Shown in pieces: positions 12,010 to 63,814 of a stretch of DNA of 64,000 nt; within the stretch, counting starts at the first letter, position 1; every line of letters begins with the position of its first letter. The stretch is from positions 4,282,501-4,346,500 of the forward strand of contig JAQPZY010001695.1 in assembly GCA_029931535.1 (NCBI GenBank), read 5' to 3'. The notes beneath the pieces are model-generated. The model had not been told where the DNA came from and did no database searches. It saw nothing but the letters and a program-made list of their open reading frames with translations. The stretch is from Margaritifera margaritifera. Lineage: Eukaryota > Mollusca > Bivalvia > Unionida > Margaritiferidae. Both the position numbers and the translations under genes were made by a program.

Positions 12010-12148
12010 TCAGCATTCGTTAGGCACCTTTTAGTATCTCTCACAGTGGAACTGAGATTAACTACGTGAGAAAAGGGAGTGACTCAATTTGTTAAAAAAG
12101 GAACAAAGTATATTGTCTATATCACTTCTGGATAGATCTAAAACGAAC

Positions 12149-12679
12149 ATGTTTGAAAACCGTTCCTACTTGTTATCTACAAAGTACACAGTACTTTTCT
12201 GCATCTTTTCCATCTTACTGGAAATATCCCATGCGGCTGAAAATTGTACAACGTGCCAAGAATGTCCCGCCGGATGGCCTGGAATTGGTGACTCTTGCTA
12301 CTTTTTCTCCGTCTTGAAAGTAAACTGGTTCCGTGCAAAGAACGCATGCGAGAACATGGGCAGTCATCTTGCTACCTTGGAAACATTCACGGAAGATATG
12401 TTTGTATCGATCTATTTGAGAAACATTCAAAATCACCTACCAGGCGCAAACTACATATGGATGGGCGGTTCCGATTTGGACAAAGAAGGCCAGTGGAAGT
12501 GGGTTACTGGTGAGCCATTTTCTTACACCAACTGGAGAAAAGGAGGAACAAACGGACAAGTTCAGGCTCCAGACAATCACATGGGCTTGGAACACTGTCT
12601 AGATTGGAGCAATGGATGGAATGACAACAAATGTTATGCCGAGTACCACTTTATCTGCGAAAAGGATATTTGTGTATAA
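12149..12679 (+). CDS. Secreted C-type lectin, intact, single exon
   Basis: A 176-residue protein. Residues 1-29 form a signal peptide (hydrophobic core YTVLFCIFSILL, cleavage likely after SHA). A short Cys-rich linker (C33, C36, C39) leads into one C-type lectin domain, about 39-176. Expected disulphides are C39-C50, C67-C170 and C150-C162; C33, C36 and C175 remain and could link chains. Landmarks are SHLATL (72-77), WMGG (104-107), GQWKW (114-118), GEPFSYTNW (121-129), a QAPDN variant of the QPD sugar/calcium motif (139-143), EHCLDW (148-153) and WND (157-159). From the family, such proteins bind sugars in a calcium-dependent way and serve immunity or shell/mucus matrices; the ligand cannot be read here. 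The first ATG with a signal peptide is chosen over an upstream non-ATG extension. No intron is needed. Five broken relatives and one intact relative lie in the window. Confidence 0.95.
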   Translation: MFENRSYLLSTKYTVLFCIFSILLEISHAAENCTTCQECPAGWPGIGDSCYFFSVLKVNWFRAKNACENMGSHLATLETFTEDMFVSIYLRNIQNHLPGANYIWMGGSDLDKEGQWKWVTGEPFSYTNWRKGGTNGQVQAPDNHMGLEHCLDWSNGWNDNKCYAEYHFICEKDICV

Positions 12680-21420: not shown

Positions 21421-21958
21421 TTCTTCACTGGTTAGCATACGCCAGAAAAAATCAGCGAAAAAAATATTAATAACTTTCTTAAGGACTAAAATAGGCATGC
21501 AATAACAGCTGACTGGCCCAGTTAATGTGGTGATAACTAAAAGAGTTGACAAAACTTAAACCTATTTGATAAATCTGTTTTTTCTTTATCTGTAGCAACA
21601 CTGAAGTGCAACTGTCAAGTTCGGCATTTGCCCAAGTGTGGTTTGCTCCAGTGTTCAATTCATTTTCAAGACAACGGTATAAGTGGACGGTCATGTCATG
21701 CCACAGATTATAAATATTATGTCCAGAAAACTAAAACTCAGGTACCACACTCAGCTAGTTACGATGCAGTTTTACAAATACAAGATATGACCATTTATTC
21801 CTCAAATCTCCACCCATGTTGTTGCTTTGGAAGTAAACTGCACCCTGAACGTTTAAAATGGAAGACAGTGCATCTAAGGTGAAATGTAGGAAGTTTTTAG
21901 ATCCAATGGCTATATCCGAAAATGAAAAACCGCCTATATATTAGTGACCTTAACATTG
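21421..21958. other. Intergenic, no gene supported
   Basis: A frame of 84 codons at 21,628-21,882 is cysteine-containing but matches no domain I know and has no promoter or splice context. I leave it uncalled. Confidence 0.5.
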
Positions 21959-23166
21959 CCATACACACTATGGTATCATACATTGTATGCCATACACACT
22001 GTTGTATCATACATTGTATGCCATGCACACTATGGTATCATACATTGTATGCCATACACACTGTGGTATCATACATTGTATGCCATACACACTGTGGTGT
22101 CATACATTGTATGCCATACACACTATGGTATCATACATTGTATGCCATACACACTGTGGTATCATACATTGTATGCCATACACACTGTGGTATCATACAT
22201 TGTATGCCATACACACTGTGGTATCATACATTGATTGCCATACACACTATGGTATCATACATTGTATGCCATACACACTGTGGTATCATACATTGTATGC
22301 CATACACACTGTGGTATCATACATTGTATGCCATACACACTGTGGTATCATACATTGTATGCCATACACACTCTGGTATCATACATTGTATGCCATACAC
22401 ACTGTGGTATCATACATTATATGCCACACACACTGTGGTATCATATATTGTATGCCATACACACTGTGGTATCATACATTGTATGCCATACACACTATGG
22501 TATCATACATTGTATGCCATACACACTGTGGTATCATACATTGTATGCCATACACACTGTGCTATCATACATTGTATGCCATACACACTATGGTATCATA
22601 CATTGTATGCCATACACACTGTGGTATCATACATTGTATGCCATACACACTGTGGTATCATACATTGTATGCCATACACACTGTGGTATCATACATTGAT
22701 TGCCATACACACTATGGTATCATACATTGTATGCCATACACACTGTGGTATCATACATTGTATGCCATACACACTGTGGTATCATACATTGTATGCCATA
22801 CACACTGTGGTATCATACATTGTATGCCATACACACTCTGGTATCATACATTGTATGCCATACACACTGTGGTATCATACATTGTATGCCATACACACTA
22901 TGGTATCATACATTGTATGCCATACACACTGTGGTATCATACATTGTATGCCATACACACTGTGCTATCATACATTGTATGCCATACACACTATGGTATC
23001 ATACATTGTATGCCATACACACTGTGGTATCATACATTATATGCCATACACACTGTGGTATCATACATTGTATGCCATACACACTGTGGTATCATACATT
23101 GTATGCCATACACACTATGGTATCATACATTGTATGCCATACACACTGTGGTATCATACATTGTAT
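21959..23166 (+). repeat. 31-bp satellite array, about 39 units
   Basis: Unit CATACACACTGTGGTATCAT followed by ACATTGTATGC, 31 bp. The unit contains no stop in any phase and 31 is not a multiple of three, so all three forward frames stay open for about 1.2 kb and each reads the same peptide cycle. This is an artefact, not a 448-residue protein. Marker variants (a GATTGCC unit at 22,231 and again at 22,696) show a 465-bp higher-order duplication of 15 units. Confidence 0.97.
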
Positions 23167-35552: not shown

Positions 35553-36173
35553 TTAGTGATTATTTTTATATGACATAATTTGAATGTCACAATTATATCA
35601 AGTTTTACACGTAAATGTGATTACTCAAATTTCTGAATAGTTTGTAATCTTTGTGTATAAAAAAAAAAACACTTAATGCAAATTCCGTTTTACTAAATAA
35701 TTTTAAAATGTTGACTGTAAAACTTTAAGCTAATTGACAATCCAGTCTAGAGTCTACAACGCACCTGTTCAGTTCAGTTCAGTACAAAATGTTTAGCTGG
35801 TAGACTTTATTACATTTGAATGATGGCTATATGCAAAAGCAACGTGATGGAATGTTTTTACTTCTTCCATGCAATACCTTTGGAATCCCCAACATGTAAA
35901 ATATGTTGAAAATTTGTATACAGGTAATATGATAAATAAGAAAGATCCTCGTTTGTTCTTTGTTTGATGCATCATTTTTCCCTGACATTTCACCTCGTAG
36001 TTTTCCAGAAATAAGTTTCATCCGCATATGTACAAGTGCAACTAGATCCATCAAATTGGCAAAAGAAAGGATTTTTAAGTAATATAATAAAAAAAATCTT
36101 CAAACCTTTGGAAGACAGATTTGATTTAAGTAAAAACCTTTAGACAACTTTTTAGGTTGGAATACTAAATAAA

Positions 36174-36176
<3 letters not shown>

Positions 36177-36248
<72 letters not shown>

Positions 36249-36265
36249 AATTAACGTAGATCTTA

Positions 36266-36298
<33 letters not shown>
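36177..36298 (+). repeat. AC/AT compound microsatellite with a duplicated flank
   Basis: AC tract, AT tract, then TTAACGTAGATCTTACTT occurs twice, separated by a second AT tract (about 36,250-36,315). The pair suggests slippage duplicating the AT tract with its flank. Confidence 0.9.
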
Positions 36299-36301
<3 letters not shown>

Positions 36302-36309
36302 CGTAGATC

Positions 36310-36462
36310 TTACTTCTTGTCCAAAATTTTCAAAATTCTTCTTTGTATTTTCTGCATGAGGTTGCAAGTATCATATGCCGTTAATAGGTGTACGATATGC
36401 TGAGAATGTCACACTGGAAGGGTTAAAAACGTAGATTTGTGTTACTATTTTCCTGTCAGATA
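36310..36462 (+). pseudogene. 5' fragment of a C-type lectin pseudogene
   Basis: About 150 bp align with the start of the lectin at 61,174: signal peptide (AVNRCT-like junction), the CxxC region and the CYYFPV block. The start codon ATG reads ATT (36,326-36,328), the Arg codon before ECP is a TGA stop, and homology stops at about 36,462 where unrelated AT-rich DNA begins. About two thirds of the gene are missing. Confidence 0.85.
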
Positions 36463-36654
36463 ACTAACAAATTTAAAAATTAAAGGATAACCTCTTTTAA
36501 AATAATAATATTATTAAGGGTTTTTTCTTCTGAAATCTAAAATATTTATCGGGAAAATAATTTTCTTAGTACTAATGTTTTATGTTACTTATACCTAAAT
36601 GACTTTTAAGTATTTTTTGCAACATTCTATTTCTGCAAGGAACTGATCTAAACT

Positions 36655-39182
36655 TGACCCCATACTCCAAACATCTTCACCCCATACTCTAAATACTTTA
36701 AAAATCTTCATTCCATATTCTAAATACTCCAAATATATTCACCCCATATTCTAAATACTCTAAACATCTTCACCCCATACTCTAAATACTCCAAAAATAT
36801 TCACCCCATATTCTAAATACTCCAAAAATATTCACCCCATATTCTAAATACTCTAAACATCTTCACCCCATATTCTAACTACTCCAATCATCTTCACACC
36901 ATACTCCAAATATCTTCAGCCCATTCTCTAAATACTCTAAACATCTTCGCCCCATATTCTAAATACTCTAAACATCTTCAGCCCATTCTCTAAATACTCG
37001 AAACATCTTAACCCCATATCCTAAATACTCTAAACATCTTCATCCCATATTATAAATACTCTAAACATCTTCATCCAATATTCTAAATCCTCCAAACATC
37101 TTTACCCCATTCTCCAAATATCTTCAGCCCATTCTCTAAATACTCTAAACATCTTCACCCCATATTCTAAATACTCTAAACATCTTCACATCATACTCCA
37201 AATATCTTCACCCCATTCTCTAAATACTCTAAACATCTTCACCCCATATTCTAAATACTCCAAATATCTTCTCCCCATACTCTAAACATCTTCACCCCAT
37301 ACTCCAAACATCTTCACCCCATATTCTAAATACTCTAAATATTTTCACTCAATATTCTGAATACTCCAAATATCTTCACCCCATACTCCAAATATCTTCG
37401 ATCCATATTCTAAATACTCCAAACATCTTCACCCCATATTCGAAATACTCCAAACATCTTCAAGCCATACTCCAAACATCTTCACGCCATATTCTAAATA
37501 CTCCAAACATCTTCACGCCATATTCTAAATACTCCAAACATCTTCACGCCATATTCGAAATACTCCAAACATCTTCAAGCCATACTCCAAACATCTTCAC
37601 GCCATATTCTAAATACTCCAAACATCTTCACCCCATATTCGAAATACTCCAAACATCTTCAAGCCATACTCCAAACATCTTCACGCCATATTCTAAATAC
37701 TCCAAACATCTTCACGCCATATTCTAAATACTCCAAACATCTTCACGCCATATTCTAAATACTCCAAACATCTTCACGCCATATTCTAAATACTCCAAAC
37801 ATCTTCACGCCATATTCTAAATACTCCAAACATCTTCACGCCATATTCTAAATACTCTAAACATCATCACCTCATACTCCAAACATCTTCACGCCATATT
37901 CTAAATACTCTAAACATCTTCACGCCATATTCTAAATACTCTAAACATCTTCACGCCATATTCTAAATACTCCAAACATCTTCACCCCATATTCTAAATA
38001 CTCCAAACATCTTCACCCCATATTCTAAATACTCTAAACATCTTCACGCCATATTCTAAATACTCCAAACATCTTCACGCCATATTCTAAATACTCTAAA
38101 CATCTTCACGCCATATTCTAAATACTCTAAACATCTTCACCCCATATTCTAAATACTCTAAACATCTTCACCCCATATTCTAAATACTCCAAACATCTTC
38201 ACGCCATATTCTAAATACTCTAAACATCTTCACGCCATATTCTAAATACTCCAAACATCTTCACCCCATATTCTAAATACTCCAAACATCTTCACGCCAT
38301 ATTCTAAATACTCTAAACATCTTCACCCCATACTCCAAATATCTTCACCCCATATTCTAAATACTCCAAACATCTTCACCCCATATTCGAAATACTCTAA
38401 ACATCATCACCTCATACTCCAAACATCTTCACCCCATATTCTAAATACTCTAAACATCTTCACCCAGTACTCCAAATATCTTCACCCCATATTCTAAATA
38501 CTCTAAACATCTTCACCCCATATTCTAAATACTCTAAACATCATCACCCCATACTCCAAATATCTTCACCCCATATTCTAAATACTCTAAACATCTTCAC
38601 CCCATATTCTAAATACTCTAAACATCTTCACTTCATACTCCAAACATCTTCACCCCATATTCTAATACTCTAAATGTCTTCACCCAATATTCTAAATACT
38701 CTAAACATCTTCACCTCATACTCCAAACATCTTCACCCCATATTCTAAATACTCTAAACATCTTCACCTCATACTCCAAACATCTTCACCCCATACTCCA
38801 AATATCTTCACCCCATACTCCAAATATCTTCACCCCATACTCCAAACATCTTCACCCCATATTCTAAATACTCGCAACATCTTCACCCCATATTCTAAAT
38901 AATCTAAACATCTTCACTCCATATTCTAAATACTCCAAATATCTTCACCCCATACTCCAAACATCTTCACCCCATTCTCTAAATACTCTAAACATCTTCA
39001 CCTCATATTCTAAATACTCTAAACATCTTCACTACATATTCTAAATACTCCAAATATCTTCACCCCATATTCCAAACATCTTCACCGCATTCTCTAAATA
39101 CACTTAACATCTTCTCCCCATACTCGAATACTCTAAACATCTTCACCCCATATTCTAAATACTCCAAATATCTTCACCCCAT
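36655..39182 (+). repeat. 31/21-bp satellite array, about 2.5 kb
   Basis: The main unit is CCATATTCTAAATACTCCAA followed by ACATCTTCACG (31 bp). Interspersed short units CCATACTCCAAACATCTTCAC lack a 10-bp internal piece (21 bp). The long form is most regular between 37,480 and 38,330; both ends are more divergent. More than 80 units in total. Confidence 0.97.
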
Positions 39183-39515
39183 GCTCAAGTACACTTTTCT
39201 GCACAAATGGTTAAATAAAAAGATCTAATTACATAGAGAAAAATAACAGATGTCATGCTTTGCAAGCGAAAGGAAGAAGTATTATTTACACAAAGAGATA
39301 GTTGATATTTGAGAAAAAAAGACAAATATTTGAAATATAATCTCAAAACTAAAGCATAAATCAAAATGATCATCTAATTTTTTACAAAAAGTTTTCTAAT
39401 TTATTTTTATTCAAGCCGATAATTACTTCTGTATATTTTCTTTGTTTGGGGATCATTTTAGGATTAGTACAGCTATAAATAGTATTACAATAGTTACATG
39501 TATAGACATATTGTG
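39183..39515. other. Intergenic, nothing recognised
   Basis: AT-rich spacer. Confidence 0.5.
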
Positions 39516-39746
39516 TAACAACTCAAAATAATGTTAAGAAAAATAAATATGACCTCTATATTCTTTTGCTTAAGAAAATCATTTACTTTTCCCCCCAAAT
39601 CTTGTATAAATATACATTTGAAAAATAGATGCAGTAAAGTTTCTTTTGTCATATTTCAAAATTCACACAATGAGAAGGTTTGCATTTTTAAGAGAAAGGT
39701 ATTAATTGTTGATATTCGCATGATTTATCTAAACTGAAATTCTCTC

Positions 39747-40592
39747 AGTTTAGTGTCTAGTGTATATTTGAAAGGTTTAGTGTCTGGTGTACATTTGAAA
39801 GGTTGAGTGTCTGGTGTACATTTGGAAGGTTTAGTGTCTAGTGTATATTTGAAAGGTTTAGTGTCTGGTGTATATTTGAAGGGTTTGGTGTCTGGTGTAT
39901 ATTTGAAAGGTTTAGTGTCTGGTGTACATTTGGAAGGTTTAGTGTCTAGTGTATATTTGAAAGGTTTAGTGTCTGGTGTACATTTGAAAGGTTTAGTGTC
40001 TGGTGTACATTTGAAAGGTTTAGTGTCTAGTGTATATTTGAAAGGTTTAGTGTCTGGTGTACATTTGGAAGGTTTAGTGTCTAGTGTATATTTGAAAGGT
40101 TTAGTGTCTGGTGTACATTTGAAAGGTTTAGTGTCTGGTGTACATTTGAAAGGTTTAGTGTCTGGTGAATATTTGAAAGGTTTAGTGTCTAGTGTACATT
40201 TGAAACGTTTAGTGTCTGGTGTACATTTGAAAACATAAAGGTTAAACTGTTTTTAAAGGAAACTTCTACAAATATCTATTGCAGTTTTTTAAAATATCAT
40301 TCTGCTTTCTCTTTGTATTATGTATTAATTCTTCATTTAAAAAAATAAAAAATAAACGGAAAAAATACTCTGGCACACTTTAAGTCGTGATTATTTTGGA
40401 AAGGTTTAGTGTCTGGTTTACATTTGGAAGGTTTAGTGTCTAGTGTATATTTGAAAGGTTAAGTGTCTGATGTATATTTGAAAGGTTTAGTGTCTGGTGT
40501 ACATTTGGAAGGTTTAGTGTCTAGTGTATATTTGAAAGGTTTAGTGTCTTGTGTATATTTGAAGGGTTTAGTGTCTGGTGTACATTTGAAAG
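39747..40592 (+). repeat. 27-bp minisatellite in two arrays
   Basis: Unit TTTAGTGTCTGGTGTACATT followed by TGAAAGG, 27 bp. About 18 units at 39,747-40,233 and seven at 40,404-40,592, separated by about 167 bp of unique DNA that is itself repeated after the second array (40,594-40,762). The 143-codon frame here is the array (nine-residue repeat LVSGVHLKG), not a gene. Confidence 0.97.
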
Positions 40593-48541: not shown

Positions 48542-48547
48542 GGCGGC
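48542..48547 (+). repeat. Left target-site duplication of the Polinton
   Basis: GGCGGC immediately before the AGTAGTAATGC terminus. The identical hexamer follows the right terminus at 57,620-57,625. Six bases is the characteristic Polinton/Maverick duplication length. Confidence 0.9.
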
Positions 48548-48862
48548 AGTAGTAATGCAACTGTGGGGGTAAGAAAACACTATTGGCATTTTCTATGATC
48601 ACTCGTCCTCGACCTGGTAAAATGCCAATAGTGTTTTGACCCCGCCCACATTTGCATTACTACCTACAGTTATAATTTGCTTTTTTGCCAGCTTCGCGGA
48701 AATATTTGGCACAGGAGTTACCTCTCCTTGCTTGCTGAAATATTTGAAACAGGCGTACATGAGCTACCTCCCTTGCTGGCGTACATGAGTTACTTCCCTT
48801 TACTGTAATCTATTTTTAGTAACAGTCAAATATGCAAATTTGCTTGTCAATGTAATATAGTA

Positions 48863-48917
<55 letters not shown>

Positions 48918-49232
48918 AAGTGAATTATATGTATAGATAGATGTAGAAAGGCAGGTATCTCATAAAGTCGACCAATCTTGTCTTGATATTCATGCTTTGA
49001 TGATGCAGTCAGAGGCACAGTGATATAAATTAATGACCTATGATAATGACAACCTAGCTTCCGATGTGAACACGACTAACTCAAGTTGTCAGGAACCTAG
49101 GTTACAAACCCTCGAAGCCGTTCACACAAGCGACCGGGTGCAAGGGTAATGCGATTTCCAAATGTTCCTTAGCTGCTGATGAACTAAAATATTCAACACG
49201 GCTAGCACTCAGTCCGAGACAGGGCTTCCATA
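48548..49232 (+). repeat. Left terminal inverted repeat of the Polinton
   Basis: Aligns in reverse complement with 57,001-57,619 over its length, from AGTAGTAATGCAACTGT to the block GTCCGAGACAGGG. An AT microsatellite (48,866-48,914) has expanded here at the place where the right repeat has only a short TATATATAT. The substitutions and small indels between the two ends imply an old insertion. Confidence 0.95.
48549..48662. repeat. Foldback palindrome at the left Polinton terminus
   Basis: GTAGTAATGCAACTGTGGG and AAAACACTATTGGCATTTT on the outer arm are followed, after a loop of about 25 bp, by AAAATGCCAATAGTGTTTT and CCCACATTTGCATTACTAC. The stem is about 45 bp with few mismatches. Confidence 0.92.
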
Positions 49233-49826
49233 AGTTGCTTATGGCCAGTAAACAAGCAGGAAACTTTGGTACAGAGGTTGGTAATGAAATTACTGAAATA
49301 TATCATCTGCTTCAGCAAAGTTTACTTAAGTAATGCCGATTACAGAGTTTTTTTTACAATGATTTGATATAGTCATGTCGCAAACTTTTCTCTTTGATTC
49401 CATCTTGGCTCAAGGAAGCAGTAGTAATTTTACTGTCAGGAATATGGAATTCATTTCATAATGTTACAACCAGCAACAACAAGTTCAGATATCTTACTTC
49501 TGCTAGTGATGCATGAACATAGGAGGGTATTTATCAACGCTGTTTTCAAATATTTCTAGGATAGTGCCAGACATAGTCAGACGAATTGCTCCACTCGTCA
49601 GAAGCGCTTCGGGACCGCCAGCGCTGCAGCTGCCTGTTGGAGCCCATCAAAGAAATCCCGCCAGCAAAAGAAGCTGAGCATGTGATGACTAGTAGAGCCA
49701 AAAAATTATTTGTCCAAGCGTTGCCAAGAAATTATAAATGAACACGATATGAGATTGGCGCCAAAATAATTACCTAACCTGTGAAATATTATGGCGGGCG
49801 CTGGTCTAAAGAGAATATTAGTGTAA
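49233..49826 (+). other. Polinton interior without a clear gene
   Basis: Between the left repeat and the capsid relic. Around 49,575-49,690 one phase gives a short basic, Ala/Arg/Lys-rich peptide (IVRRIAPLVRSASG, then a Lys-rich part after a phase change), which might be the remains of a small DNA-binding or core protein. No domain is certain. Confidence 0.35.
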
Positions 49827-51280
49827 CGAGGATTTATAAACGCGCTGTCTAGATTTACCCAAGAGTTTTTAAATCTCTTTGATGAAGCTCTAATTGACGA
49901 ATCAACAACTGAGTACGAATATGTTGAATATTTGGACAAGGACTCACATGAAATGAACAAACCTGGAACAAGAATTGTTGATACGCGAGATGAAAACGTT
50001 TACATGTTGCCTCATAAAGCTTTTCTTGAAGTCAGAGGTTATTTGCAGACAACTGCTGCTCAGCCTGCCAATTTTGCTGCTGGTGCACAGATAGCGCTAA
50101 CAAACAATGGCTGGAGTCTGTTAAAGACTGCGCGATATAAACTTAATAATCAGACAGTTGTGGACAGCTGTCAGCATCATCATGAATTTGATTTCGATGA
50201 GCGATGACCACAGTAGAAGTTCATTTCTGGTACAAGGATACGAGCAATGCAGCAGATAGCAAAAAGCATAGGCAAGGTATTGCAGTTCTGATGCTGTTTC
50301 TGCTATGCCTGGACCAACTGCAGCTGAAATTCGTACGGTCATTCGCAATGTTTTTATAGATCCAGAAATTCCTGATTATAATCTTGGCTTTGCAACTTGG
50401 GGCGCTATTACAGACGGCCACAATGAAGTGTGCATGATGTTGCCACTAAGCTCCATTTTTGGTTTTTGCCGAGACATTGATACAGCGTTTAGAGGCGTCA
50501 AGCACACGCTAGTTTTGAAGAGAGCCGATCCTACTGCGTACATGCACCATAAAGCTGGTGGTGCTGACGGACAATTTTATTTGTTTTACAAAATTATCGC
50601 TGTGGATGCCAAAGATAACGCCTTCTATTTGTCACGCGCGAGAACTGAATAATATTTTGTCCAGGTTTAGCAAGAAATTGTATTTTGAGCAAATGCGCGT
50701 CTACAAAAGTGTTACGTATTTACCAGCGCAATTATCTGCGAACTGGAGAATAGCTACATTTCCAGGCAGTGAACTTCCAAGACACATATTTATAGCTCTT
50801 CAAACCACATCACGAGATGCTGACCAAGAGACAAGTAGCCAGGTATTTGACAAAATGGGACTGACTCGCATTGCTGTCAGAGTCAATAGCAGACAAAATC
50901 CCGAGCGTGAACTTGAGTGTAATTTTGCACCACTTAGTAAAAACTATTCGCGAGCGTATCATCTGCTTCAGGAGGCTATGCAAAATTATCAGGATGTTGA
51001 TACATGAACACAAATATCTCTAGATGAATTTGAAAGGCTGTGTACTATTTATCACTTTGATGTTTCGAAGCATTTGGAACGCAAAAAAGCTGCCATTGTA
51101 GATGTTAAAGTCAAGTGGACTCTTCAACCTATAGTACCAGCAGTAGCCATACCAAACTATCATGTTTATGCTGTAATTACCGCTGACAGATTTGTGACAT
51201 TGGATGCTCTTAGCGGCAAGATGACCTTTAATCGTCTAGAAGAAACTGATCTAGATAGTTTGTCTAAGGATATCATATAA
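49827..51280 (+). pseudogene. Polinton major capsid protein relic (double jelly-roll type)
   Basis: Across three phases the region keeps the order of landmarks of Polinton/adintovirus hexon-type capsid proteins. These are an acidic N-terminal strand block, the GAQIALTNNGWSLLKTARYK block (about 50,082-50,141), MLPLSSIFGFCRDI (about 50,440-50,480), TLVLKRADP, a PRHIFIALQTTS block (about 50,779-50,820) and a C-terminal YHVYAVITADRFVTLD block. The protein would form the capsid shell. It is broken by a stop at 50,205-50,207 and phase changes before 50,305, a phase change near 50,650 and a TGA at 51,005-51,007. The last stop abuts the ATG of the next relic at 51,281. The family call rests on motif pattern; a structural comparison was not possible. 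Confidence 0.75.
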
Positions 51281-51716
51281 ATGAGCTACTACTCGACAAA
51301 AGTGATTTTGACGCCGTCACAGCAACAAGCAATTGCATCTGCTCATGGAAAGCGTGCTAGCATTTCAATCAAACTTGGAAACAACCAACTGTATTAAGGA
51401 CAACACGTTCTTACGCTTACAAAAAAAGCATTTAAAGTTTATTAATGCAAAGCATAATGGCAAGGGCTTAACTTTAAAATGATCTGCTAAGTAGTTGTCT
51501 TCCAATAGGAGGCGTTTTATCAGCGATCTTACCCCCTCTTACAGGATACGGACCAACAATATTATCTGTACTTGGCTCGCTAGGAATGAAAAAATAAAAA
51601 TATGTTTGCTTAAGTTGCAGACAAATGTTGCTGACAAAAAGTTTACTGAACCTCCTGACACTTAACCAGCTGCTTGACCTCTGGAAAGAGTTTTGTCTAA
51701 TCATCTTAAATTGAAA
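51281..51716 (+). pseudogene. Relic of a hydrophobic Polinton core protein, first copy
   Basis: Begins ATG at 51,281, directly after the capsid stop, with a block LTPSQQQAIASA and IKLGNNQL, then a TAA at about 51,395. In other phases the blocks LTLTKKAF, GLTLKM and PPLTGYG follow to about 51,590. The same LT-Q-I / GKGLTL / QL pattern recurs in the next relic, so the two genes look like duplicates. Small hydrophobic proteins of this kind are typical in adintoviruses next to the capsid gene, and are suspected to act on membranes or as internal capsid proteins; function here is inferred only. Confidence 0.6.
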
Positions 51717-52547
51717 ATGCCATATCAGTCAATTAGTTTTTCTCTGTCTGAGGCTCAACGTAAAAAAATTGCAGCGGCCACTTCAAGAGGCAGTCCAATG
51801 TCATAAAGTTTATTACCAAAGCAGTTGTCATCTGGCAACGACAAGCTTATGCTAACAAAGCGCCAACATGAACAAATTAGAAAACAGAGCGCAGCAGGGA
51901 AAGGTCTCACACTTGATTTGGCCGCATCGCAGCTTAAGAAACAAGGTGGAATCTTACATCTGCTGCCCATGCTTGCTGCTGGTGCTGTTGGCATATTTTT
52001 ACCTAAACTTCTTGGCGGTTTCTTTGGGAGAGGTGTTGGTGGTAAAAAAAAACAAAAAGAGAGCGCAAGGATGGCAATACCCCGGAACACAGCGCCGCTA
52101 AGCAGTTTTGACATTGAGAAAGATATAAAATCATTTCGAGGTGTCTTTTCCAAATATCGGATGCCAGAAAAAATCAGAGCCAATGAAAGCTGCGCTATAA
52201 ACATAGAGAATTATTTTGATGGATCTGGAACACATTGGGTTGTCGTTGTAAACATGCCAGATAATAGCGACGATGAATATTTAGACTCGTTTGATCTGCC
52301 ACCATGTAACACTATTAAAAAATATGTTTCTGGCGCTGAGATAGTCTGCGTTTCTAACTCAACACAAATTCAGCGTGTGATTAGTTCAGCTTGTGGTCTT
52401 TACAGTATTTATTTCATCAGATCACGTTGTAAAGGAAATTCCGCATTAGATATCTTACTGGAATTTAACCAGCTACTAACTCTAGACAATGACACGTTAG
52501 TTTATAGTAAACTTAATAAGCAGAAACAAGTGTGTTTTTTCAAGTGA
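51717..52547 (+). pseudogene. Hydrophobic core protein joined to an adenain-like cysteine protease
   Basis: From ATG 51,717 one phase is open to 52,547 apart from a TAA at about 51,804. Codons after that stop encode LTKRQ, GKGLTLDLAASQL and a glycine-rich hydrophobic helix (LPMLAAGAVGIFLPKLLGGF), then a Lys-rich stretch. From about 52,090 an adenovirus-protease-like domain begins (PLSSFDIEKDI). Its catalytic residues are visible: His in GTHW (52,233-52,235), Asp in LDSFD (52,293-52,295), Gln in TQIQ and Cys in SACGLY (52,392-52,394). Proteases of this family process capsid proteins. The two parts are usually separate genes, so the fusion may come from an indel or from reading through. The protease part itself is the best preserved gene of the element. 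Confidence 0.85.
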
Positions 52548-52789
52548 ACCAAGCATGTTTTTCCAGGTATGTTTTGTGTAAATGCCAGATATAATGACAG
52601 CTTCGTGGTGCTTAAAAGAATACCGACAGTCTTGAAGAAACTTCATCTCAGACTAAAAATGGACGCTCTGTAGTGTAATCTGTATGTGCTGAATGCAGTA
52701 AAAGAATATCCAGATAGATTGGTTAAGGCAATCTCTTGTGGTTGTGCTGACGCCCATCCTATTATCGTACTTGACACATAATATTTTAT
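52548..52789 (+). pseudogene. Unrecognised Polinton gene fragment
   Basis: A short run with blocks VVLKRIPTVLKKLHL and LNAVKEYPDRLVKAI in one phase, with a TAG in between near 52,670. It looks coding-derived but I do not recognise the family. Confidence 0.4.
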
Positions 52790-53335
52790 GTTTACTCGTT
52801 ATATATGCATGTCTGCGGTGACAATATTTGTATTCAAGGGAATACAATTGTTGGACACTGTTCTGGTTGTAAGCGCCGTAAAATATATGGCAGCGCTCTT
52901 GATCTTCATACTCTCATTGGAAAACTTCCTAGACCAAAAGGCGGCTGGACTCTTTATACTGGTCCGTGGAATCCTCTGGATAAACAATTTGACGCAAATG
53001 ATCATCCGCTTCCTGGTCAACAACCCTATAACCAACTGGATGCCACAGCAATACGGCATGACATTTTCTACAGAGATCATCCAGAAAAAACCGCTGTAAA
53101 TAAATTATGCTTGATGAGTTAGCCGCGACAAAATCAAAAGGGATGAGAGAAAATATTGACAGAACTTTTGTCAGAGGCGCCTTCGGACTCAAATATAAAC
53201 TAGGTGTTGGCACTAAACCAGCGGCTAGAAGTAGCCGCAAACCAGTGGCTAAATGTTTTCAAACAAAAGCCATCAAACTAGTCGTCAAACAACATCCAGC
53301 AAACCAGCGAATAAAAAGACAGCCAAGATGATATA
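52790..53335 (+). pseudogene. Phospholipase A2-domain protein relic (parvovirus VP1-like type)
   Basis: The phase starting at 52,805 encodes a Cys-containing N-terminus, PRPKGGWTL, a calcium-loop-like YTGPWNPLD and the catalytic-type block LDATAIRHDIFY with the His-Asp pair at residues 85-86. This arrangement (Y-GP-NPL, then D--A--HD--Y) is that of the phospholipase A2 domain in parvovirus VP1 and some invertebrate DNA viruses, where it helps particles leave endosomes. After a phase change near 53,105 the tail continues (LDELAATKSKG, FGLKYKLG) and ends in basic residues. Its place between protease and integrase shows it is part of the element. Confidence 0.75.
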
Positions 53336-54175
53336 ATAGCAGAAGAATTACATAAGCCAGCAAAAAAAACGTTTTCCAGGCGCAGAGTTGTTGCTAATGG
53401 TGTTGATGGCATCTGGTCTTCTGATCTTGTAGACATGCAGGAATATTCCAGAAATAATGGCGGCGTCAAGCAAGTATGAAAGGAGCTTGCCATTATAAAA
53501 TAAAACTGGCGCAGCTATCAAAGACGCGTTTGCAAATATGACAACATCATTAGACAACAAAAGCAAACCAGCAAAACTTTGGGTGGACCATGGCGACGAA
53601 TTTTACAATAGTGCGTTTGAGAACTGGCTTGAAGAAAAATAAAATTTATAAGTATTCCACGTCCAATGAAAGCGAAGCAGTTCTCGTTGAAAGATTCAAT
53701 CGCACGCTAAAAATTGCGACGTAAAACGCTTTACAAAAATCAAACGAGTAAATATGTAAATGTGCTGCAGTCGCTAACAATACGAAGCATACAAGCAAAA
53801 TCCAGACAGCGTGTCAAACAGACTATTTTTTAGACAAAGGTTTAATGTGGCGAACCGGGTCAGGACTTCCAGAATAAAATAAATGTTTGATAAAGATCAT
53901 ACAGCAAACTGGACCGAAGAAGTGTTTACAGTGACAGATGTATTATAAACAATTCCTGTAACGTATAAGATCGCAGACCTTAATGGCGAACCTGTTTCAT
54001 GAGTCTTCTATGAGCAGGAGTTACAAAAAACAGAGCAAAATGTCTTTAGAATAGAGCATTTAATCAAAACTCGCGGAAACAAGTCGCTTGTGAAATAGAG
54101 CGGCTGCTCTGATGCTTTTAATTCCTGGGTTCGGACACCTTTGGTGTCTACTTCAAGTATTGAGAAATAATTCTG
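53336..54175 (+). pseudogene. Polinton integrase relic with chromodomain
   Basis: A retroviral-type integrase broken into many pieces. The first catalytic Asp lies in GIWSSDLVDM (about 53,400-53,435). The second is in LWVDHGDEFYNSAF (about 53,577-53,620). The Glu of the DD(35)E triad is in LVERFNRTLK (about 53,690-53,720). Downstream are NWTEEVFTV and TYKIADLNGEP (about 53,905-54,000), then a C-terminal chromodomain-like block FRIEHLIKTRG-SLVKWSG (about 54,045-54,110). Polinton integrases insert the element into host DNA and make the 6-bp duplication seen at its ends. Several stops and phase changes make it inactive. Confidence 0.85.
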
Positions 54176-54332
54176 TCGTGCTCTGCTAATATTTTTTTGC
54201 TAGCAACAGGCTTGCACATGGCCGCCTTGTCTGGCAGATCTAGCAGCAGAAATAATTTTTGGAAGATATAATCAAGCTTAAAACATTTCTGTTCTTCTGG
54301 CAGCAGCCAGACTTGCTTTTTATGTTGTCAAG
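54176..54332 (+). other. Polinton interior, nothing recognised
   Basis: Spacer between integrase and polymerase relics. Confidence 0.4.
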
Positions 54333-56850
54333 TTGCTGCATGAAAATCCTGAATCATATACTAATTTGGTTCTCACTATGATATCAGAAAATGACTCTTC
54401 TGGAGCAGACAATTTGTTTAAAATACGGATTCAGCTTACGGACGAGCAAAGACAACTACTTAATAAACATGACATAATGAACATTAGCTATGACAGAAAC
54501 TTGCTGACGCGTCATAGCGTATCATGCGTCAGCCGAGATGCCAGATTGATGCCGCTTGATGTTTTTTTACAAAGACTGTTGAACCTAGCATAAAACAGAT
54601 TTTTTCCAAGGAGCTGCAACTGCATCGTGGCAAAATAGCATTGATAACTTTCAACGAGAAGGCTCTCGTTGAACTTTAGAATGTGTCACAAAATGTATCA
54701 TTAACACCGTCAAGAACAATCCGCTGCGAGGAAAATCGTATTTGGAATTACCAGCTAAAATTAGAAGAAGTCAAAGTTGCGTTAACGTGCAAAATAAGGA
54801 CAATAAATGTTTCGTGTGGTCTGCATTATCTGCTCTTTATCCAGCTGCAACAAATCCTAAACGAGTTAGCAATCATAAGGACGTCCTATAATTTTGCTGG
54901 CATGATGTTCCCAGTTTAGATTAAGGACGTTCCAAAATTTGAGCGACAAATTAATGTCTCTGTCAACGTATTTGGTGTAGATGTCAGGCTTGCAAAGTAT
55001 CCACTACATATTTTATCATTTACCAGCGATGTTGGTAACATTGATCTGTTTTACATTCATGGCGAAACTAACGATGGCCACTACTGCTGGATAAAAAGTT
55101 TTCTGCAATTATGTACGGCCAGGACAGCAAACATAAGCCCAAGTTATATTTTTGCAGCATACATCTTCATGGCTACACCACAGAAAATTACTTGCTGTTC
55201 ATTGACTAGATTGTGTTGACGTTGCAAAAAGTATTATGTCAGACAAAAAGCATGATAAGATACCATTTTACAACTTCTGTAATATAGCCCGGGTTCCTTT
55301 CATAATTTATGCTGATTTCGAATCACTGCTGATTCCTGTCGAGGGTGCAGATAACGATGAAAAATCTTGTACAAGAAAATATCAGGAGCATGTTCGATGC
55401 GGCAACGCACAAAGTTGTTTTCGTTAACAACGCGCTAAGTAAATTGTGGCGAATTTTTATACAGAGTCTGCTTAAAGAAATTAACAACATTCATGGAATC
55501 AACTCAGCAAGAATGATTTTTAGTGAACAGGACCAAGAAGACTTTTCTCAGGCTAAATTATGTTGGATCTGTAATCAGAATATTGGCAACGACAGAGTTC
55601 GAGATCATTGTCATTACACTGGCAGATATCGTGGTGCTGCTCATAACATGTGCAATCTGAAATTAAGACGACATGAATTTGTTCCGATAGTATTTCATAA
55701 TCTGTGAGGCTGTGATTCGCATCTCATCGTAAAGCACTTTGGCAAGTTCAAGAAAAGCATTACCTGGATTCCAAATAAAATGGAAAAGTACATGTCATTT
55801 TCTCTTGGCAATCTGCGTTGTATCGACAGCTTTCAGTTCATGCCTGAGTCGCTAGACTAACTTGTTAATAATGTTAGAAATTCGGCCCAGAGTAATTTAG
55901 CTGGCGTTTTTCAAATATTCTGCAGAAGAGTTTAATGTCAATAAACTTTATCTTGTTACTATTAAAAGGGTATATCTTTACGAGTACGAGTACAAATCAT
56001 CTTCGGGTAAATCTGATGAGACGTCGCTGCCACAACAAGAAGATTTATACAGCCATTTGAGCGGCACTAATTTTTCTGATGCTGATTACGAGCACGCCAA
56101 AAATGTTTGGAATAAATACAATATGAGAAACATGGGCGACTATCATGACCTGTACATGAAGACCGATGTGCTGCTGCTTACAGATGTATTCCAAAACTTC
56201 AGAGACTTCTGCTTGTCATATTACAAACTAGATCTTGTCGCATATCACTCCTGCCCTGGTTTTTCCTAGGACTCAGCTCTTAAAATGACTGAGGTTAATC
56301 TGGAGCTGCTGACAGATGTTGACATGCATAATTTCTTTGAGAAGAGAATCAGAGGTGGTATCTCAGTAATCACACACAGGCATTATGTAGCTAATAACAA
56401 ATATCTACCTGGCTACGATCTGAAAAAAGAAACGAAGTATATTACCTATCTTCACACCAATAGTCTTTATGATTATGCGATGAAGCAGAAGCTACCTGTT
56501 GGCTACTTTAAGACGTACTTGAACTGTCAAAATATCACATGTACCGATTTCACTATGGCATAATCAAAAAGTAATATGCTGACCGAGCCAAGATTCTGCT
56601 TACTGACACTGATTTTTTTGCTATGCTACGAAATGAAAACAGATTATGCGTACGAGGACATGTTTCCTAGGAAAGAGCATTCTGACTTTTCTGAATACCC
56701 TGAACAAGATAGCAAACTCAGTAAATTTTAGAGCTGTTGTTATTCTGATTTTTAGAAAGAATCTTTCTACGCAAAATGTGTCCGATGTCACCATCTTCAT
56801 TCGTTTCGTACAAATTGTGGGTGGGATGATCATAATATATAAGTACATTT
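54333..56850 (+). pseudogene. Family B (protein-primed type) DNA polymerase relic of the Polinton
   Basis: N-terminal blocks (FAGMMFPV, then PKFERQINVSVNVFG near 54,925-54,980, and GETNDGHYCWIKSF) match the Polinton polymerase leader. The exonuclease follows: Exo I in YADFESLL (about 55,300), Exo II near VFHNL, broken by a TGA at 55,705-55,707, and Exo III in YMKTDVLLL (about 56,150). A zinc motif of endonuclease-VII type (CWIC plus DHCHYTGRYRGAAHNMCN, about 55,565-55,655) lies inside. Polymerase motif A reads YLHTNSLYDYAM (about 56,449-56,485), His replacing the catalytic Asp. Motif C-like LLTDTDFF (56,597-56,620) follows about 120 bp later, so motif B and most of the palm/fingers are deleted. 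The thumb is missing. There are at least five phase changes. It would have replicated the element. Confidence 0.9.
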
Positions 56851-57000
56851 TATATATCTAATAAAAATGTAAGCAACGTTTTGTGTAAAATAATTACATA
56901 AAGGATAGAGAGCACGACTGCATAAAAATCATCAAGCTTCATTTTTGTTTAATCTCATTGTATAATGGCAAAAGAAAAATTTAAAAAAAAAATATAAAAA
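56851..57000. other. Polinton interior next to the right inverted repeat
   Basis: AT-rich stretch with an A-rich run (56,975-57,000); no gene. Confidence 0.5.
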
Positions 57001-57619
57001 AACCCTGTATCGGACCGGGTGCTAATCCTTCTGAATATTTTAGTTCCTCAGCAGCTAATTAACATCTGAATCGCATTTACCACTGCAACCGGTAGCATTT
57101 ACCACTGCAACCGGTAGCTTGTGTGAACGGCTTCGAGGGCTCTTAACCTAACTTCCTGACAACTTGGAAGCTAGGTCGTCGTCATGATAGGTCGCTAAGT
57201 TATATCAGCGTGCTTCTGACGGCATCAAAGATTGACCAACTCTCTGAAATACCTTCCTTTCTACAGCTAACTTTACATGGAATTCACTTTGTATATATAT
57301 CATACTATATTACGTTGACAAATTTACGGTTAGGCCAATTTGCATATTTGACTAATACTAAAAATAGATTTGCATGTCATAAATCAAGGGGAGTTAACTC
57401 ATGTACTCCAAATATTTCCAGAAGCAAGGGGAGGTAACTCGTGCCAAATATTTCCACCAAGCTGGCAAAAAAGCTAATTATATTTGTAGGTAGTAATACA
57501 AATGTGGGCCGGATGAAAACACTATTGGCATTTTACCAGGTCGAGGACGAGCGATAGCGAGTACCTGACCATAGAAAATGCCAATAGTGTTTTCATACCC
57601 CTACAGTTGCATTACTACT
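57001..57619 (-). repeat. Right terminal inverted repeat of the Polinton
   Basis: Reverse complement of 48,548-49,232. A 23-24 bp unit (GCATTTACCACTGCAACCGG) is doubled at 57,072-57,117, a change not seen in the left repeat. The right end reads GCATTACTACT. Confidence 0.95.
57490..57618. repeat. Foldback palindrome at the right Polinton terminus
   Basis: GTAGTAATACAAATGTGGG and AAAACACTATTGGCATTTT pair with AAAATGCCAATAGTGTTTT and CTACAGTTGCATTACTAC across a loop of about 40 bp. It mirrors the left-end palindrome. Confidence 0.92.
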
Positions 57620-57625
57620 GGCGGC
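57620..57625 (+). repeat. Right target-site duplication of the Polinton
   Basis: GGCGGC directly after the ACT terminus, identical to 48,542-48,547. Confidence 0.9.
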
Positions 57626-61053: not shown

Positions 61054-61173
61054 CAGAGAATAGTGACACAAAGAAGGGGGTGTGGCTCTGCTTATTAAAA
61101 ACGGGAATCACCTATACTTACCTAACACTGCCAGATTGGTTTACGTAAACTCAGCTCTTACTTCTTATCTAAA

Positions 61174-61668
61174 ATGTACACAATTCTTCTTTGTACCCTC
61201 TGCATCACTTTGGGAGTGTCATATGCTGCTAATAATTGTACATCGTGCCGAGAATGTCCTCCTGGATGGACTAGAAATAGTAAATCGTGTTACTTTTTCT
61301 CCATTTCCGAGGAAACCTGGATCCGTGCAAAGAAAGCCTGCGAGAACATGGGCAGCCATCTTGCTACTTTGGCAACATTCACCGAAGACGCATTCGTATC
61401 GAGCTATTTGAAAAACATTCAAAATCATCTATCAGATGGAAAGTACACATGGATTGGCGGTTTTGATTTGTTCTCTGAAGGACAATGGAAATGGGTAACT
61501 GGTGAGACATTTTCATATACCAACTGGAGGAAAGGAGAAGAAAACGGAGTTCAAAATCCAGACAATGCTATGGGAATGGAACACTGTCTAGATTGGAGTA
61601 ATGGATGGAATGACAACATATGTCATCACAAGCACCACTTTTTATGTGAAAATGATCTTTGTGTGTAG
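61174..61668 (+). CDS. Secreted C-type lectin, intact, single exon
   Basis: A 164-residue protein. Residues 1-18 form a signal peptide (MYTILLCTLCITLGVSYA), then three closely spaced cysteines (C22, C25, C28) and one C-type lectin domain to the end. Expected disulphides are C28-C39, C56-C158 and C138-C150; C22, C25 and C163 are extra. Landmarks are SHLATL (61-66), WIGG (93-96), GQWKW (103-107), GETFSYTNW (110-118), QNPDN (127-131), EHCLDW (136-141) and WND (145-147). Compared with the lectin at 12,149 it has a shorter N-terminus and ET for EP in the first calcium-site region. Family knowledge suggests calcium-dependent sugar binding outside the cell; the sugar is unknown. Its paralogue in duplication copy A is dead, so this is the surviving member of that pair. 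Confidence 0.95.
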   Translation: MYTILLCTLCITLGVSYAANNCTSCRECPPGWTRNSKSCYFFSISEETWIRAKKACENMGSHLATLATFTEDAFVSSYLKNIQNHLSDGKYTWIGGFDLFSEGQWKWVTGETFSYTNWRKGEENGVQNPDNAMGMEHCLDWSNGWNDNICHHKHHFLCENDLCV

Positions 61669-63636: not shown

Positions 63637-63814
63637 ACCGTTATCAGGGCCGTCGTAAGGGGCGGGCGATACGCGCGACGGCCCGGGACGCCAAGCCTTG
63701 TGGGTCGCCATTTCGCAGAGTTTACCGTTTTTTTCCAAGGGGGTGCGCCGAAGGCGACGCTCGCCCGGGGCGCCGTTTCGTCCAGCGCAAACTTGCGACA
63801 GCCCTGACCGTTAT
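63637..63814. mobile_element. hAT-like MITE with a perfect 8-bp target duplication
   Basis: The element occupies 63,645-63,806 (162 bp). Left end CAGGGCCGTCGTAAGG, right end in reverse complement CAGGGCTGTCGCAAG. It is flanked by perfect ACCGTTAT at 63,637-63,644 and 63,807-63,814. The interior is very G+C rich. The two overlapping open frames across it are not genes. The 8-bp duplication points to hAT. Confidence 0.93.

Follow-up and report, generated by a model that had tools for sequence, protein, structure and literature searches.

Probable relic of a Polinton/Maverick with hairpin-forming ends in a contig of Margaritifera margaritifera

A short insertion in the bivalve Margaritifera margaritifera (contig JAQPZY010001695.1) raises the question of whether a Polinton of about 9 kb is a copy that has lost genes or a member of a lineage that is small by nature. 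We examined the 64,000-nucleotide stretch that carries it (the window; positions 4,282,501 to 4,346,500 of the contig), and all coordinates given here are those of the window. The element occupies 48548–57619 (9,072 bp) and is very probably an old and dead Polinton/Maverick that has lost genes; elements of this kind are DNA virus-transposons integrated in a host genome. It reads AGTAGT...ACTACT from end to end, with AGTAGTAATG at one terminus and CATTACTACT at the other. The hexamer GGCGGC lies immediately outside each; it occurs five times on the + strand of the 64 kb, both copies of the target-site duplication (TSD) included, and once on the − strand. The terminal inverted repeats (TIRs) are identical at 501 of 568 ungapped columns (88.2%; Kimura two-parameter distance 0.129; 18 gap events). 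Ends, duplication and repeats bear out the single insertion event claimed in a preliminary description of this DNA. Long TIRs, AG...CT ends and a 6-bp TSD are those of Polintons/Mavericks, and for vertebrate Mavericks one survey gives (AGT)2//(ACT)2 with a 6-bp TSD as the commonest end type (PMC8097293).

The two TIRs have diverged unevenly. The outermost two 60-bp bins differ at 3/60 and 4/60 positions (0.05–0.07), and toward the inside divergence is higher and irregular, at 0.12–0.20 in the inner six of the twelve bins. Given this difference, the pair may have been non-identical already at insertion. If the repeats were identical at that time, the copy is old, a statement that assumes no substitution rate. 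A perfect 22-bp tandem duplication lies in the right TIR at 57073–57116, and the repeat listing holds no left-TIR copy of it. No second copy of the element was found inside the 64-kb window.

The genes between the repeats support the identification (Table 1). All recognised relics lie on the + strand, and the capsid, protease, phospholipase and polymerase genes named in the preliminary description were each recovered as relics, the integrase, the weakest assignment, as a putative one. The DNA polymerase B (PolB) relic contains an Endonuclease_7 match (E 3e-6), and one 122-aa piece of it has 13 relatives. Our reference was the intact 1286-aa PolB of the IMG/VR locus L004 (IMGVR_UViG_3300028392_002905), a metagenomic Polinton-type contig of which 14,169 of 17,398 bp were examined; this protein also includes an Endonuclease_7-like part. 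Ungapped tblastn against positions 53000–57200 gave nine collinear blocks (E 0.002 to 3e-57), running from residues 216–281 at 54640–54837 to residues 704–877 at 55976–56497 and then 1098–1134 at 56515–56625. The reversed query, used as a control, gave five matches, the best at E 0.14.

An adenovirus-like cysteine protease, as in Polintons/Mavericks, is likewise present. The protease piece of the window, taken alone, matched Peptidase_C5 in Pfam only at E 0.13. It has 15 relatives (best E 4e-33), and a profile of the family (13 members, window included) matched the African swine fever virus protease S273R (E 1.5e-7) and the adenovirus protease 1avp (E 9e-5) in PDB; Peptidase_C5 was matched at E 1 or better by 8 of the 13 members. 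Residues 2–285 of one relative, P0001, align at 51723–52502, and P0001 has the same fusion of virion domain and protease. The minor-virion-protein-like domain occurs in tandem, alone at 51281–51600 and protease-fused at 51723–51956, the first copy matching residues 2–66 of P0001 on 51287–51481 (E 1.2e-5, in a 521-bp database).

The double-jelly-roll capsid protein usual in Polintons/Mavericks is represented by three collinear pieces that match PF21738 at E 0.17, 1.4e-5 and 0.048, in profile order 48–100, 162–251 and 261–316. The first piece of the gene (49827–50204) had no family match and was assigned by eye and position. The relic of a parvovirus-type phospholipase A2 (PLA2) matches PF08398 at E 1.4e-4. 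Its five relatives (54–62% identity) all match PF08398, three of them also PF18930, and the region in the window retains part of the PF18930 Cys pairs. PLA2-like lipases are noted in some Polintons, and for the lipases of such viruses an entry role is proposed by analogy with parvoviruses (PMC4642659). Novelty of the PLA2 or of the virion-domain/protease fusion was considered and rejected; both are present in relatives, and PLA2-like lipases are known (PMC4642659).

Searches of IMG/VR with single protease, PLA2, capsid and PolB pieces gave nothing usable; the sole capsid match, L001, was dropped (14 residues, with open reading frames that look phage-like by eye). Profile scans of the same database led to L004 and to L002 and L003, which by eye are distant Polinton-like viruses. 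NCBIfam and PHROGs scans added nothing. The preliminary description had made its reading depend on the placement of polymerase, integrase and protease in families by profile searches; the protease was placed by its family profile and the polymerase by its relatives and the blocks shared with L004, and the integrase gave a weak rve match.

Several observations weigh against the identification. No capsid match, not even the best, reaches the curated threshold of 27 bits, and the PLA2 match, at 22.5 bits, falls short of its own threshold of 23.9. The integrase yielded one weak rve match (PF00665, E 0.14, at 53499–53639) beside motifs resembling D/D/E, recognised by eye in three neighbouring pieces; searches of NCBIfam, PHROGs and PDB gave no useful support, the PDB matches of an integrase piece being unrelated. 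The FtsK/HerA-type packaging ATPase usual in Polintons/Mavericks was not found in the element, which agrees with the earlier remark that neither this gene nor a penton gene is visible. No Walker A motif occurs in its six frames, and Pfam scans of 40 open pieces, which left some short open pieces unscanned, returned no ATPase or penton family; an 'ABC exporter' match on a PolB piece (E 0.25) is at chance level. By tblastn, neither the three ATPases of L002–L004 nor two penton-like proteins of L002 and L003 (labelled by eye; the penton is a small divergent protein) matched the window, in which 49.2–49.8 kb has no assigned gene. With a threshold of E 0.05, the window gave no match to the L004 integrase and capsid or to any capsid, penton-like or ATPase protein from L002–L004. 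An ATPase is reported to be identifiable in 83% of Polintons and not in all of them (PMC4028283). Decay is, moreover, uneven: the protease stretch at 51807–52547 is open over 246 codons, exceeding the maximum of 175 reached across 200 mononucleotide shuffles. Selection on this stretch is disfavoured because three of 11 nearly invariant family columns (L172, F212 and G216 of P0001) are altered in the window, which also lacks a short stretch, both read from the alignment by eye.

The termini have a further property, which the preliminary description did not mention: each forms a hairpin. Both were folded as single-stranded DNA (left 119 nt, right 132 nt; 200 shuffles each), and at either end 0/200 shuffles folded as well. 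Among 6,387 positions, taken at 10-base intervals and folded as 130-nt stretches, the right hairpin was the most stable fold and the left the second (−37.3 and −36.6 kcal/mol), with a TA microsatellite close behind at −35.0. Not one base differs among the four arms over a 19-bp core. Identity is 41–42/52 across arms, and 49/52 and 51/55 between left and right. Within the TIRs, the hairpin part differs at 7/117 sites and the rest at 60/451 (Fisher p 0.035, a single post hoc test, unadjusted). A sequence at 28.4 kb, considered as a second terminal motif from its fold ranking, was rejected as a TA microsatellite whose prefix is due to chance, and a 185-kb contig matching the 19-bp core was taken as chance, the contig not having been inspected.

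It is plausible, if somewhat doubtful, that these hairpins are functionless, being either a palindromic miniature inverted-repeat transposable element (MITE) captured by the TIRs or an accident of fold-back copying. Identity across arms is below that between left and right, so that the palindrome was imperfect already at insertion, which favours such an origin. The hairpins nevertheless sit exactly at both termini, adjoining the TSD, the core is unchanged across four arms, and the hairpin part has diverged less than the rest of the TIR by the post hoc test above. Judged from sequence, and for this single insertion, the blockwise conservation suggests a function in the live element; the 19-bp core is explained equally well by inverted binding sites or by a hairpin. 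That an animal Polinton lineage had true hairpin termini, selected in the live element because they prime by folding back or offer the integrase or terminal protein a pair of sites, we entertain tentatively and consider rather unlikely. Full-text searches, mostly at the level of listings, turned up no report of hairpin ends in Polintons, Mavericks or adintoviruses, and we do not claim that such ends are unreported.

The Polinton part of the earlier label, Polinton/adintovirus, is upheld by the ends and the gene relics; the narrower adintovirus label is not. Adintoviruses are defined by an OTU-like PolB N-terminus, a chromodomain integrase and a BLASTp-recognisable hexon (PMC11071296), and a decayed adintovirus in this strict sense is possible but doubtful here. 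Its adenain-type protease and double-jelly-roll capsid do stand beside PolB and putative rve integrase relics, gene classes that adintoviruses share. Against it, no OTU or chromodomain match was found in the Pfam-scanned pieces, which include three from the badly broken region at 53.75–54.1 kb for the chromodomain, and the PolB N-terminus has no match to that of L004: residues 1–215 and 1135–1286 of the L004 protein found none in 53000–57200 by tblastn. The C-terminus of PolB is probably lost as well, only 374 bp remaining between the last block and the right TIR. Three reported Drosophila-associated adintoviruses are larger, at 13.3–14.6 kb; FtsK is named for the first, and the second has an almost identical gene set (PMC8363768).

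The small size is better read as deletion than as a compact lineage. About 220 residues of PolB (878–1097) are absent across 17 bp, at about 56498–56514, leaving the polymerase of this Polinton/Maverick as a relic with a gap of about 220 codons. Mapped onto L004, what is missing falls between DANNLYG (863) and TDTDS (1127) and takes in NNAVFGKT (1031); we take these to be polymerase motifs A, C and B, respectively. Apart from the protease stretch, the recognised genes are interrupted by stops or frame changes, and the reading frame shifts between successive relic pieces through all three frames. Deletion is favoured because of the internal PolB gap and the probable loss of the PolB C-terminus, the broken genes, the lack of a Walker A motif, the 12.7-kb minimum of intact vertebrate copies and the existence of L004 with intact PolB, rve integrase and ATPase. 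The preliminary description had left deleted copy and small lineage side by side; the former gains from this evidence and the latter is unsupported. A compact, non-autonomous Polinton lineage, in which deletion preceded insertion and the form of about 9 kb owed its mobility to a complete relative acting in trans, strikes us as quite improbable. With complete ends and a TSD a shortened molecule could have integrated as such, and the order from capsid to PolB is otherwise tidy and on one strand. The PolB gap, however, removes the middle of a gene and not a module, and the damage to the recognised genes outside the protease stretch is of the kind that ordinary decay leaves. The deletion favoured here may have occurred either before or after insertion. 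An insertion of a parvovirus or bidnavirus, suggested by the PLA2, is rejected, as a single insertion contains the PolB, protease and capsid relics, and the Pfam hits of the 40 scanned pieces include neither a replicase nor a capsid family of parvoviruses.

Table 1. Features of the element and its borders (window coordinates)
Feature	Positions	Strand	Basis or remark
TSD GGCGGC, left copy	48542..48547	no strand	directly outside the left end
Left TIR, includes TA microsatellite	48548..49227	+	680 bp; 88.2% identity to right TIR
Left terminal hairpin, inverted duplication of terminal ~45 bp	48548..48666	+	−37.2 kcal/mol, z −11.3
Small-open-reading-frame relic upstream of capsid gene	49510..49741	+	no credible family match
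Major capsid protein (double jelly-roll) relic; stop and frame changes	49827..51280	+	PF21738, three collinear pieces
Minor-virion-protein-like domain, first copy, broken (pX/pVI-like by eye)	51281..51600	+	P0001 match
Second minor-virion-like domain and adenain-type cysteine protease, fused	51678..52547	+	P0001 and profile matches
PLA2 (parvovirus-type) relic, partly kept Cys motif before it	52775..53331	+	PF08398; frame change near 53.1 kb
rve-type integrase relic, at least three frames	53315..53877	+	PF00665 and motifs by eye; weakest assignment
Open piece just upstream of PolB, possibly PolB N-terminal part	54282..54593	+	position; no L004 match
Protein-primed PolB relic	54640..56625	+	Endonuclease_7 match and nine collinear blocks
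Right TIR	57000..57619	−	620 bp; aligned to left TIR
Right terminal hairpin, inverted duplication of terminal ~45 bp	57488..57619	−	−39.9 kcal/mol, z −12.2
TSD GGCGGC, right copy	57620..57625	no strand	directly outside the right end

Read as a deleted Polinton copy, the element would have had the following history. From what is known of the family, PolB would have copied the linear DNA of the live element by protein priming, capsid and protease would have built virions, and the PLA2 would have helped at entry. Insertion would have been the work of the rve integrase, which would have attached the two ends at a target opened by a 6-bp staggered cut. To judge by the decay, the PolB part, the ATPase and probably the penton would have been lost before or after insertion, and stops and frameshifts would have accumulated. 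The terminal hairpins would have been inherited from the live element, where they would most likely have served replication or integration, either as inverted binding sites or as ends that fold back.

Compared with known systems, the element resembles animal Polintons/Mavericks at its ends, with their AGT repeats, 6-bp TSD and long TIRs, and in its PolB, protease, double-jelly-roll capsid and putative integrase genes. Vertebrate Mavericks are likewise mostly degraded as genomic copies, and those that are intact measure 12,723–24,620 bp (12.7–24.6 kb against 9.07 kb here) with TIRs of 46–1,447 bp; they usually have two modules on opposite strands, with exceptions, whereas the relics here lie on one (PMC8097293 for the vertebrate copies). 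The element also differs from them in its PLA2 gene and strong terminal palindromes, and ATPase and penton were not found. L004 is similar in its homologous PolB, Endonuclease_7-like part included, and differs in that this gene is intact and that an ATPase of A32 type (E 5.6e-11) and an integrase of rve type (E 6.4e-8) accompany it; neither of these two, nor the L004 capsid, has a match in the window. No TIR was found in the 14,169 bp of L004 examined, which leave out one contig end. Parvoviruses have hairpin termini, and the PLA2 domain here is of their capsid type (PF08398); the ends of the element differ in joining host DNA through a 6-bp TSD.

Elsewhere in the window, two similar C-type lectin open reading frames flank the element at a distance on the + strand (12083–12679 and 61126–61668; Lectin_C E 1e-18 and 1e-19) and are probably paralogous host genes; by themselves they would point to an animal host, perhaps a mollusc. 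A 162-bp GC-rich element at 63645–63806, whose ends read CAGGGCCGTCG and CGACAGCCCTG and which is flanked on both sides by the duplicated 8-bp sequence ACCGTTAT (63637–63644 and 63807–63814), is by its anatomy what we take to be a hAT-type MITE. A 31-bp minisatellite of 39 copies at 21957–23166 has two long open frames, of 455 and 405 codons. Two further minisatellite fields, of 31 bp and 27 bp, lie at 36662–40592, and GC skew in 2-kb bins is extreme at 36001–38000 (−0.68) and 38001–40000 (−0.50).

As a fossil Polinton the element is unremarkable; to go by the gap in PolB, deletion accounts for at least part of its small size. Its ends, if they are true hairpins, would give a protein-primed virus, itself the bearer of a parvovirus-type PLA2, termini built like those of parvoviruses. 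Should other copies share them, the hairpins would bear on how Polinton ends are replicated and how the integrase recognises them, neither of which has, to our knowledge, been demonstrated experimentally. They would also bear on the proposed gene exchange between parvoviruses and Polintons behind the bidnaviruses, whose own ends are contrasted with parvovirus hairpins as forming none (PMC4061559).

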